A DNA stretch of 43,327 bases from the NCBI GenBank assembly GCA_947487055.1, contig CANKVN010000007.1, positions 1 to 43,327 on the forward strand. Reading direction: 5' to 3'. The DNA is from Flavobacteriales bacterium (lineage in GTDB: Bacteria > Bacteroidota > Bacteroidia > NS11-12g > UBA955). The translations under genes and the position numbers were made by a program. Within the stretch, counting starts at the first letter, position 1; the number at the start of each line of letters is the position of its first letter. Below are positions 12,406 through 16,488 of this stretch, one piece after another. Under the pieces are notes generated by a model that saw nothing but the letters and a program-made list of their open reading frames with translations, did not search any database and was not told the origin of the DNA.

Positions 12406-13638
12406 ATGCAAATATCAGAAAACATAAGGCAAGGTTTGGAAGCCATCAGGGCAAACCTGCTGCGAACGGTCATTACCTGCCTGATTATTGCCATTGGTAT
12501 TGCTGCCCTGGTGGGAATCCTCACTTCCATCGATGCGATGAACAGTGCCATTACCAAAACATTTTCGCGGATGGGTTCCCAGAGTTTCAATATCCGGAAT
12601 AATCAGGGGTTTCAGCGCCGTGGTGGCGGTGGGGCTGCTTCTGCTATTTTCGAACCCATCAGTTATAATCAGGCCTCTGGTTTTAAAAAGTCCTTTCAAT
12701 ACCCTTCGGAAGTTTCGATCAGCATCAATGCAGAAATGACGGCCAAGGTGCGCTACAAAAACAAAGAAACAAATCCGAATGTAAGGGTCATCGGGATTGA
12801 CGAAAACTACCTGAAAACGGCCAGTTACGAATTGGAAAAAGGCCGAAACCTAACCACCAACGACGTAGATTTGGCGCTGCCTCTGGCCATTATAGGGAAA
12901 GAAATAGCCGCCAACTTTTTTGGCAAAAACGGATTGGGTGAGGAAATAAAAGTGAATGGCAAAACCTACCGTGTTGCCGGCATTTTAGCTGAAAAGGGCT
13001 CAAGCCTTGGCATGTCCGGTGGCGACAGGGTTGTTTTTATTCCGGTTAGCCGCTCCAGACAAGATTTTTCGGCGAAATCCGAAAATTTTTTCATCAATGT
13101 GGCGGTAGACAACATCGAACAACTCGATCCTGCTATGGATGAAGCCTATTTGTTGATGCGCAGGTTGCGCGGACTCAGAAATGCCAAACCCGATGATTTT
13201 GTGCTTACGAAAAGCGATGCAATAGCCCGGGATGCCATTGATAATCTTAAAACAGTTACCAGCGTAGGAACCATCATTGCCATTATTACCCTTATCGGTG
13301 CTGCCGTAAGTTTAATGAATATCATGCTGGTTTCGGTTACCGAAAGAACCCGCGAAATTGGTGTTCGAAAAGCATTGGGCGCATCTTCAGGAACCATTCG
13401 CAACCAGTTTCTTACGGAGGCCGTGGTGATTTGCCAAATTGGTGGTTTGGGTGGAATAGTCCTTGGGATATTGCTCGGCAATCTGGTTGGTTTGGGCCTT
13501 GGTACAGGTTTCATTATTCCTTGGAAATGGATGATGACTTCCGTGGTGGTCTGTATGGTGGTGGGGCTGGTTGCCGGAATCTATCCCGCAACACGTGCAG
13601 CAAAACTCAATCCCATTGACGCGCTGCGTTTTGAGTGA
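12406..13638 (+). CDS. ABC transporter permease, MacB/FtsX type
   Basis: LRTVITCLIIAIGIAALVGI N-terminal TM, MacB periplasmic core, FtsX C-terminus (SVTERTREIGVRKALGAS...ATRAAKLNPIDALRFE). Confidence 0.95.
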   Translation: MQISENIRQGLEAIRANLLRTVITCLIIAIGIAALVGILTSIDAMNSAITKTFSRMGSQSFNIRNNQGFQRRGGGGAASAIFEPISYNQASGFKKSFQYPSEVSISINAEMTAKVRYKNKETNPNVRVIGIDENYLKTASYELEKGRNLTTNDVDLALPLAIIGKEIAANFFGKNGLGEEIKVNGKTYRVAGILAEKGSSLGMSGGDRVVFIPVSRSRQDFSAKSENFFINVAVDNIEQLDPAMDEAYLLMRRLRGLRNAKPDDFVLTKSDAIARDAIDNLKTVTSVGTIIAIITLIGAAVSLMNIMLVSVTERTREIGVRKALGASSGTIRNQFLTEAVVICQIGGLGGIVLGILLGNLVGLGLGTGFIIPWKWMMTSVVVCMVVGLVAGIYPATRAAKLNPIDALRFE

Positions 13639-13699
13639 TGGATTAGTTAAATGAGTCAATTTGAATTTCTGTAACTTAGAATTTGCTTGAATTTTGTGC

Positions 13700-15157
13700 A
13701 TGAAAAAGAGCCTAAGTACCTTACAAGAGATTGCTGCAAACAGAGGCGGTAAATGTTTGAGTGAAAATTATGTGGATGTTAAAAATAAATATGACTGGGA
13801 GTGTAAAGATGGGCATAAATGGTCATCTAGTGCAGACAGTATAATAAACCAAAATAGTTGGTGCCCCACATGCGCAGGTCAGAGAAAAATCACCCTTGAG
13901 GAATTGCAATCAATTTGTGCGTCACGTGGAGGTGTTTTCCTGAGTCAGAAATATGTCAATGCTCATACTAAATATGAGGTCATATGTGGTGAAGGGCATA
14001 TTTTTTATCCAAACGGACAGTCTTTAACTAGAGGATCCTGGTGTAAAAAGTGCGCATCCAGTGAAGTTTGGGCTAAGAGTAATAAAAAAATAAGCAGAGA
14101 AGATTATATCGAGGCTGGCAAGAATGTTGGTTGTGAATTGTTGTCTGAAAAGATTCCAAATAAAACAATCATAAAGGCCGAGTGGAAGTGCATGGCCAAA
14201 GGGCATGTTTTTTCAATGACATTTAATAACATAAGCAACCATAAGCAAAACTGCCCAAAGTGCCAGGGTAAGGCTAAAATCACTTTTGAAGATTGTGTTA
14301 TTATAGCGGAGTCTAGAATGGGAAAAATAATATCGGACAGATATAATCCATATGAACTCCAATTGTGGGAGTGTAAGCATGGTCATCAATTTTCAGCGAA
14401 ATACTCAACTATTAAATCTCAAAAAACTTGGTGCCCCTATTGTACTCAGAGTGTAGGTGAACGTGCAGTTAGGTATGTTCTAGAGTCAATATTTGGTAAA
14501 GAATTTATAAAAACTCGCCCGAAATGGTTAGTTAATGAATCGGGTAAAAGGTTAGAATTGGATGGTTTTTGTGAAGTACTGGGTTTAGCCTTTGAACATA
14601 ATGGGAAGCAACATTATTCCACTAAATATCATAGAGGAACAGTTAAATTGATTGAGAATGATTCAATAAAGTTGCATCTCTGTCAAATAAATGACGTTAA
14701 TTTAATTGTAGTCCCTGAAGTTCCAAGTTTAATTAGATTTGAGAATCTTCCATCATATCTAATCAGAGAACTAACTTCGAAAGGTGTTCAAATACCAGCA
14801 GATGCATCAATCCCGCAATTAGATAGTAGTTTTAGATGGTCTAAGACAACAGAGGACGCTAGATTGAAGAGGTTGGAGAGAGCAAAAAACTATATTCAAT
14901 CAAAGCAGGCTACATTAAAAAAAACAGATTGGATTAAGAAGGGCAAGCAATATGTTTTTGTTTTTGAAATAATTACAGTAGGTGGTGGGTATAGAAGTTT
15001 AAATGAACATAAACTATTTACAGATGATTTATGGTCAGCTAAGAGAATTGATCCGCTCACCAAAGAAGAATTTTATCCAACGAGCGGTAAACAGCTATTT
15101 GCTAGTAAGTTTAATTCTTGGAAATTTAATAATTTAAAGAAGAAAAATAAGGATTAG
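13700..15157 (+). CDS. Treble-clef zinc-finger repeat protein with Vsr/PD-(D/E)XK-like endonuclease domain
   Basis: Four C-x3/4-H...C-x2-C modules (CPTC, CKKC, CPKC, CPYC) followed by GERAVRYVLESIFG...RLELDGFCEVLGLAFEHNGKQHY...NDSIKLHLC; ATG at 13700 (ORF track starts at TTG 13694). Confidence 0.85.
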   Translation: MKKSLSTLQEIAANRGGKCLSENYVDVKNKYDWECKDGHKWSSSADSIINQNSWCPTCAGQRKITLEELQSICASRGGVFLSQKYVNAHTKYEVICGEGHIFYPNGQSLTRGSWCKKCASSEVWAKSNKKISREDYIEAGKNVGCELLSEKIPNKTIIKAEWKCMAKGHVFSMTFNNISNHKQNCPKCQGKAKITFEDCVIIAESRMGKIISDRYNPYELQLWECKHGHQFSAKYSTIKSQKTWCPYCTQSVGERAVRYVLESIFGKEFIKTRPKWLVNESGKRLELDGFCEVLGLAFEHNGKQHYSTKYHRGTVKLIENDSIKLHLCQINDVNLIVVPEVPSLIRFENLPSYLIRELTSKGVQIPADASIPQLDSSFRWSKTTEDARLKRLERAKNYIQSKQATLKKTDWIKKGKQYVFVFEIITVGGGYRSLNEHKLFTDDLWSAKRIDPLTKEEFYPTSGKQLFASKFNSWKFNNLKKKNKD

Positions 15158-15181
15158 CAATTGTAATTAATCGGCTAACTC

Positions 15182-15385
15182 ATGACCAATGAAATCTACC
15201 AGCTTTGGCAACAATGGTGCAATCAAAAACTAAACTGTGAGGTTTGCTACCTGGACAATCGGTGTGAAGTAAAACAGTTAATTTCTCCGCTGCTTGCCGT
15301 TGATTTAACGGCTCAAACTATTACAATTTCCGGCAAAATCATTCCTTTTCGACTGGTGTTGTCGGTAAAACCACTAAACCTCTAA
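15182..15385 (+). CDS. Small hypothetical protein with clustered cysteines
   Basis: 67-aa ORF with ATG, C-x5-C-x2-C-x5-C in the first 30 residues; fills the gap before convergent gcvT. Confidence 0.55.
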   Translation: MTNEIYQLWQQWCNQKLNCEVCYLDNRCEVKQLISPLLAVDLTAQTITISGKIIPFRLVLSVKPLNL

Positions 15386-15387
15386 AT

Positions 15388-16488
15388 TTACACAAACGGC
15401 AATTTGCAAACTTCGCCTTTCAGCAATTTGCCCCTTATTTCAATATGAATTGTGCTTCCGGCGGCTGATAAGGCTGCAGGAACATAAGCCAATCCTATAG
15501 GTTCATTGAGGGTTGGAGACATGGTGCCGCTGGTTACTTCACCAATCACATTGCCTTGCTCATCACACACAGGATAGTGCTGCCTTGGAATGCCTTTTTC
15601 CACCAGTTTAAATCCAACCAGCTTTTTGGTAGGCTTGTCTTCTTTTATTTTTTGGTGATAAGCCGAGTTCACAAACGGGTGGTTGAATTTGGTAATCCAG
15701 CCAAGACCTGCCTCTATTGGTGATGTGGTGTCATCGATATCATTGCCGTACAGGCAAAATCCTTTTTCCAATCGTAGGGTATCCCTGGCGCCAAGACCAA
15801 TGGGTTTGATGTCTGCGTCGGCACCCGCGGTGAAAATCGCATCCCACATGCTGCGTGCATGCTCATTTTTTACATAAATCTCAAATCCTCCGGCACCGGT
15901 ATATCCGGTGTTGCTGATGATAACATCACTAATTCCGGCCATTTCGCCAATGGTAAAATGGTAATAGGGGATTTCAGCCAGGTTGCTGCCGGTGAGTTTT
16001 TGCAAAGTAGCCGCTGCTTTTGGACCCTGCACGGCAAGCAAACTATATTCATCAGAATGATTACTCAGGATTGCTCCAAACTTTTCATTGTGTTTTGAAA
16101 TCCAGGTGAAATCCTTTTCAATGTTGCCTGCATTTACAACAAGCAGGTATTTTTCTGCATGGATGCGGTAAACCAATAAATCATCTACAATTCCACCGGT
16201 TTCGTTGGGCATGCAGGAATATTGCACACGACCATCCGTTAACGTAGAAACATCATTGGTGGTAACGTATTCTACGAGTTCGTAGGCATTTGGTCCTTCC
16301 ACATAGAATTCGCCCATGTGGCTCACATCAAAAACACCAACACCGTTGCGCACGGTGTGGTGCTCTTGTATGAGGTTGGTATATAAAACAGGCATGTTAA
16401 AGCCCGCGAATGGAACCATTTTAGCACCTAATGAAATATGAAGATCCGTTAGTGCTGTGCCTTTTAAGTTTGCAGTTTCTCCTGACAT
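15388..16488 (-). CDS. gcvT: Aminomethyltransferase (glycine cleavage system T protein)
   Basis: [63 protein letters not shown]. Confidence 0.97.

Follow-up and report, generated by a model that had tools for sequence, protein, structure and literature searches.

How did a gene for a string of putative zinc-binding modules and a nuclease-like domain come to lie by itself among housekeeping genes of a freshwater Flavobacteriales chromosome, and what might its product do there? The stretch analysed here (the window) spans 43,327 nucleotides, and the wider surroundings of the gene comprise aspS, dnaA, an iron-sulphur assembly gene, gcvT, rpoB and rpoC. An initial annotation made from the sequence alone had proposed a horizontally acquired, self-contained DNA-targeting nuclease and had left three options for it, namely a free-standing homing endonuclease, a solo defence effector or a domesticated element. 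We examined the locus in congeners, the architecture and predicted structure of the protein, and the distribution and gene-neighborhoods of its relatives.

A single-gene insert at a conserved junction

Alignment of the window with the corresponding junction in four congeners (G002, G003, G005 and G006) reveals an empty site in each of them and thereby delimits an insert with a single gene. The features of this locus are:

12406..13638, + strand: upstream neighbour, MacB/FtsX-type ABC permease, intact and family-conserved
13644..15181, + strand: insert of about 1,538 bp with the nuclease gene as its sole gene (alignment with the empty sites of four congeners)
13700..15157, + strand: zinc-array/EDxHD-like nuclease gene (P0001), ATG start, 485 aa
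15182..15385, + strand: downstream neighbour, conserved small ORF of 67 aa, frame intact despite the insertion (read from sequence)

On the left, the match to the empty site ends after TGATGGAT (position 13643), and on the right it resumes at the ATG at 15182, with boundaries that are accurate to a few bases; about 56 bases of the insert precede the nuclease gene and 24 follow it. The insert thus sits exactly at the junction of the permease gene and the small ORF, with both neighbours unbroken. The permease is present in all 58 relatives searched, and in the four congeners it ends in a stop codon that overlaps the start codon of the small ORF or directly adjoins it, with gcvT next on the opposite strand. 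The 67-aa ORF is itself conserved between the permease gene and gcvT in the genus. Inspection of the syntenic locus in close relatives, a check proposed in the initial annotation, hence found the gene absent there in the congeners, and the view that it was horizontally acquired and is self-contained at its locus is borne out by the clean single-gene insert and the four empty sites.

No terminal repeats, direct repeats or target-site duplication were found at the ends of the insert, and no att-like site or integrase remnant within it. A scan for group I and group II introns returned no Rfam intron family at positions 13000-16000, even at E-values up to 1. A 12-base match (ATGACCAATGAA) downstream of both the window copy and that of G038 might have marked a common target, but it is probably due to chance, because in the window ATGACCAATGAA belongs to the start of the native small ORF.

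The ORF recognised in the initial annotation is genuine. Its likelier start is the ATG at 13700, an in-frame TTG at 13694 being also possible, and its stop is at 15157; residues are numbered here from the ATG, which gives values two lower than those first assigned. The impression that the gene is more AT-rich than its neighbours likewise holds: its GC content is 35.5%, and its GC3 of 0.298 is the lowest among the 24 large ORFs of the window, the others ranging from 0.41 to 0.58. When codon choice is scored conditional on the amino acids the gene is no outlier, and the anomaly is confined to GC3. The GC content of the gene (35%) is close to that of the loci of its relatives (33-37%), a likeness that suggests a lower-GC member of the Flavobacteriales or a mobile element as the source.

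Architecture of the encoded protein

The protein consists of an array of zinc modules, a nuclease domain and a C-terminal region:

13715..13873, + strand: treble-clef module 1 (C35/H39, C55/C58)
13892..14053, + strand: treble-clef module 2 (C96/H100, C115/C118)
14096..14263, + strand: treble-clef module 3 (C164/H169, C185/C188), divergent, with CX4H
14282..14443, + strand: treble-clef module 4 (C225/H229, C245/C248)
14444..14779, + strand: EDxHD/Vsr-like PD-(D/E)XK nuclease domain, residues about 249-360 (alignment, AlphaFold2 and Foldseek)
14792..15154, + strand: C-terminal region, residues about 365-485, about 120 aa

CX2C pairs begin at residues 55, 115, 185 and 245, with C-H pairs ahead of them at 35/39, 96/100, 164/169 and 225/229. 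A regular expression for the module (CX3-4H-X13-20-CX2C) finds four occurrences, a number reached in 0 of 20,000 residue shuffles (shuffle maximum, two), and the Pfam model DUF4379 ('Probable Treble clef zinc finger') matches the array in three stretches (E = 6e-12). The expression, the shuffles and DUF4379 therefore agree on the four tandem treble-clef-like zinc modules of the initial annotation. A match of the window protein to DUF723 falls below the cut-off, and homologues also match CapR.

At the DNA level modules 1 and 4 resemble each other unusually closely (window 13796-13867 versus 14366-14437), with 80% identity over 30 nt and 89% over 18 nt, both at a spacing of 570, a likeness that suggests duplication or conversion within the array. 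Growth by module duplication would fit both this near-identity and the occurrence of arrays of 3 to 7 modules before, after or flanking the nuclease. The nuclease domain lies in mid-array in L076 8260-9951 (2+5 modules), L077 943-2685 (4+3) and L061 3992-5719 (4+3). A TALE-like code was sought in an alignment of 73 modules, which yielded no sharp pair of hypervariable positions, the most variable ones being 45, 47-50 and 61. A rather improbable idea is that each module of about 60 aa reads DNA and that the target is fixed by how many modules there are and in what order they stand, which would make these proteins naturally modular, retargetable nucleases; module-by-module reading of DNA, if it occurs, would give the family interest as a new type of modular nuclease.

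In the nuclease domain we marked E254, D288, E299, Q304, H305, D321 and K324. A multiple sequence alignment of 18 sequences, drawn from the window, the genomes and viral contigs, showed that D288, E299, G302, H305 and D321 are invariant (18/18), and that E254 and K324 are kept in at least 90%. As mapped through these relatives, with I-Bth0305I outside the alignment, E254, D288, H305 and D321 appear to fit the EDxHD signature. In the full-length structural model the modules are predicted with confidence and their relative placement is uncertain (pTM 0.44); given that this flexible array made Foldseek uninformative, the nuclease domain was folded alone. AlphaFold2 predicts for the isolated domain an α-β-β-β-α-β-α arrangement with a PD-(D/E)XK core (pLDDT 84, pTM 0.77). 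Foldseek against a viral library places giant-virus proteins of the restriction-endonuclease and zinc-ribbon types at the top (E = 1e-10, TM about 0.8), with annotated phage homing endonucleases further down the list. Matches in the PDB are weak (E = 0.12 or worse), many of them of the restriction fold, and include R2 retrotransposon proteins/R2 endonuclease, PvuRts1I, I-Bth0305I (3r3p) and TnsA. Sequence searches of the PDB, with the single sequence and with a profile, returned nothing, so that no solved homing endonuclease was matched; no Vsr profile matched in Pfam or NCBIfam, and no methylase that might be a Dcm partner was seen around the gene among the window ORFs scanned. Together the invariant residues, the predicted restriction-like fold and the viral-library matches, with E-values down to 1e-10, uphold the earlier assignment of a Vsr-like PD-(D/E)XK core, and the structure prediction that had been suggested as a check of it did give a restriction-like fold.

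The earlier reading of the domains overlooked the C-terminal region (about 365-485), which has a predicted fold of its own, composed of a helix, a three-stranded sheet and further helices. It has no Pfam match and no phage relative by tblastn, and full-length counterparts of it occur only in the two closest homologues. It is possibly a further DNA-binding domain.

Distribution of relatives and association with tyrosine integrases

A search with the full protein found a match in 7 of 97 relatives and 2 of 396 phylum-wide genomes, counts that include the window genome itself among those listed, and none in other genomes of the genus. The two closest full-length homologues share 59 and 60% identity with the window protein and come from two relatives, in which they occupy unrelated loci, one of them directly behind a tyrosine integrase gene. 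The profile of the nuclease domain alone recovers more distant copies that differ in architecture, among them one in the congener G006. Copies with other N-terminal regions include those at L115 5060-6241 (G006:C14), L116 4835-5575 (G043) and L118 744-3422 (G027), and no recognisable integrase was found near any of these three. This distribution bears on the third of the original options, a domesticated host gene such as a DNA-repair or regulatory factor that uses the zinc array. The intact ORF and the retained catalytic residues would accord with such a role, since they indicate a gene that is either under selection or recent; however, the gene is absent at the locus in 4 of the 4 congeners aligned and no other full-length copy turned up in the genus, and we consider domestication very improbable.

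Beyond the order, PHROG 559 ('HNH endonuclease') matches residues 7-342 (E = 6e-42) and PHROG 681 ('endonuclease') matches the array and the nuclease (E = 2e-27). Relatives were detected by tblastn in 187 phage records, many of them annotated as homing endonuclease or Hef-like, and one scan of viral contigs gave 21 loci with relatives. Plasmid relatives come from Bacillaceae and Burkholderiales. One of these, on a Cytobacillus solani plasmid (L060 4001-5092), is matched in three pieces and annotated as a gene only in part, and may be a broken copy. The homologue search and tabulation of neighbours suggested in the initial annotation thus qualify its description of the gene as a singleton: this stands within its own genome, but phages, plasmids and other Bacteroidota also carry relatives, several of which adjoin tyrosine recombinases.

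In G022 the zinc-array nuclease gene starts directly behind a tyrosine integrase gene, and in G041 a more distant member of the nuclease family directly follows an integrase that shares 68% identity with the one in G022. Comparison of L048 274-3082 (G022) with L075 5793-8830 (G041) shows nucleases that are only about 32% identical behind these integrases, as if, judging from the sequences, the nuclease had been exchanged or independently acquired behind the same integrase. The region L075 3740-8830 (G041:C4), with the integrase, the zinc-array nuclease, an excisionase-like HTH gene, a replication-initiator G2P-like gene (a weak Phage_CRI match) and DUF5681, is a possible small integrative element. 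At the C-terminus of the G041 nuclease (L075 5793-7523, residues 532-551) there are very weak matches to NUMOD1 and the I-TevI DNA-binding domain below the cut-off (E = 0.1-0.2), which would accord with a homing endonuclease. The nuclease genes of G038 and G089 each have a tyrosine integrase gene and a small HTH gene no more than a few kb away; in an integrase-bearing region of G038 (L047 8557-9288, G038:C2) a gene for a caspase-like peptidase (Peptidase_C14, just above the cut-off) is found beside the nuclease. Eight other homologues of the integrase that were examined have no nuclease behind them, and the link between integrase and nuclease is thus recurrent, not general.

These neighborhoods raise the main rival to a homing gene, that the gene is cargo of a tyrosine-recombinase integrative element of the Flavobacteriales, where it would normally cut competitors or aid recombination of the element, and that the window copy, itself immobile, was stranded here or taken up at a break. 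Both the nucleases directly behind orthologous integrases in G022 and G041, the latter with excisionase-like and replication-initiator-like genes next, and the integrase and HTH genes near the copies of G038 and G089 would be expected of such cargo. However, the window insert is the nuclease gene alone, with no integrase remnant, direct repeats or att-like site, and most other homologues of that integrase lack a nuclease; we hold this origin to be unlikely, if the best of the alternatives.

A defence role appears less likely still. In this case the protein would act alone as a nuclease against phages or plasmids, with the zinc array serving to recognise the invading DNA, and a horizontally acquired nuclease equipped with modular DNA-binding units could plausibly be such an effector. 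The proximity of the G038 copy to the caspase-like peptidase gene and a weak PADLOC candidate match of the G022 copy through its zinc modules (PDC-M38B) point in this direction. The window protein itself, however, has no PADLOC match, its gene lies among housekeeping genes, outside any defence island and with neither a modification nor an immunity partner, and the family is abundant in phages themselves.

A probable free-standing homing endonuclease

In light of these observations, we propose that the window gene is probably a free-standing, selfish homing endonuclease gene. Several lines of evidence favour this: the matches to PHROG 559 and 681 together with the phage relatives annotated as homing endonuclease or Hef-like, the restriction-fold matches together with the conserved E254, D288, H305 and D321, the empty site in four congeners together with the sporadic distribution, and a phage outgroup of homing endonucleases with the same architecture (PMC12350094). 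The locus has the layout expected of an intronless homing gene, one gene flanked by conserved ones and relatives that carry the empty allele. Its site, behind the conserved sequence coding for the permease C-terminus and ahead of a small ORF that stays intact, is of the harmless kind that such genes typically occupy. Of the options first listed, a homing endonuclease is clearly favoured over a solo defence effector, given the recognised outgroup, the Hef-like phage annotations and the lack of a matching PADLOC model.

By this mechanism, the four zinc modules, perhaps together with the C-terminal region, would be arrayed along a long stretch of target DNA and hold the single EDxHD/Vsr-like PD-(D/E)XK domain in place for a metal-dependent cut. 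When copy-bearing DNA meets an empty allele, the cut would fall near the junction, and recombination repair from the copy-bearing DNA would bring in the 1.5-kb single-gene insert. We infer DNA binding by the modules, cleavage, a target sequence and mobility by homing. Counting against homing are the lack of a sequence match to any solved homing endonuclease, with PDB fold matches at E = 0.12 or worse, and the location of several bacterial homologues in elements with an integrase, through which they could spread without any homing. No second genome occupied at the same junction was found, and repeated homing to one site is without an example since the two closest homologues sit at unrelated loci.

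As a homing gene, the locus would offer a clean natural case of a zinc-array EDxHD-type gene that made a single-gene move into a housekeeping region; given that the empty allele is known, target and cleavage are directly testable. It also ties a recently recognised family, described so far mainly from phages, where it was first recognised, to tyrosine-integrase elements of the Bacteroidota.

Comparison with known systems

Among restriction-like proteins with zinc modules, those of Klosneuvirus, Pithovirus and Marseillevirus (zinc-ribbon/treble-clef proteins) have nuclease domains 31-45% identical to that of the window protein over about 120 columns, with TM about 0.8; several such giant-virus restriction-endonuclease proteins are annotated as zinc-ribbon or treble-clef and, unlike the window gene, they belong to viruses of eukaryotic hosts. 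I-Bth0305I (3r3p) shares the restriction-like catalytic fold, with a weak Foldseek match to the window domain (probability 0.77, TM about 0.5), but it shows no detectable sequence match and its solved domain lacks a treble-clef array. PF14311-array proteins of Bacillaceae plasmids, exemplified by the 'zinc-ribbon domain-containing protein' of Priestia (WP_322552811.1), are 33% identical over 75% of the protein and likewise have four modules followed by the nuclease, but they have three more modules where the window protein has its C-terminal region.

Hef is described as a homing endonuclease of phage U5 that acts on nrdB (PMC2988022). Hef-type phage enzymes resemble the window protein in having tandem zinc modules ahead of a Vsr-like core and in being encoded by free-standing genes between conserved ones; the Hef-like gene of Campylobacter phage PC5 sits between two topoisomerase genes. 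The PC5 protein is 28% identical to the window protein by BLAST over about 300 residues and shares PHROG 559 with it (E = 4e-214 for PC5). Its C-terminal domain is Mom-like and the spacing in its core is G-x3-H, whereas the window clade has G-x-Q-H-Y and another C-terminus.

The closest precedent in architecture is a large outgroup of EDxHD/Vsr homing endonucleases in phages (NAR 2025, PMC12350094), in which 3-5 modules of about 60 aa, related to DUF4379, CapR and DUF723, precede a nuclease of about 100 aa distantly related to EDxHD/Vsr; the members described lie inside group II or group I introns of phages. Like these, the window protein has four DUF4379 modules followed by a restriction-like nuclease domain; unlike them, its gene is free-standing in a bacterial chromosome without an intron, and its nuclease domain is not C-terminal, being followed by the region of about 120 aa. 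Because this architecture has been described in phages, the window gene is a member of a known family, and what is new here is the clean chromosomal single-gene insertion and, more modestly, the link with integrases in mobile elements of the Flavobacteriales.
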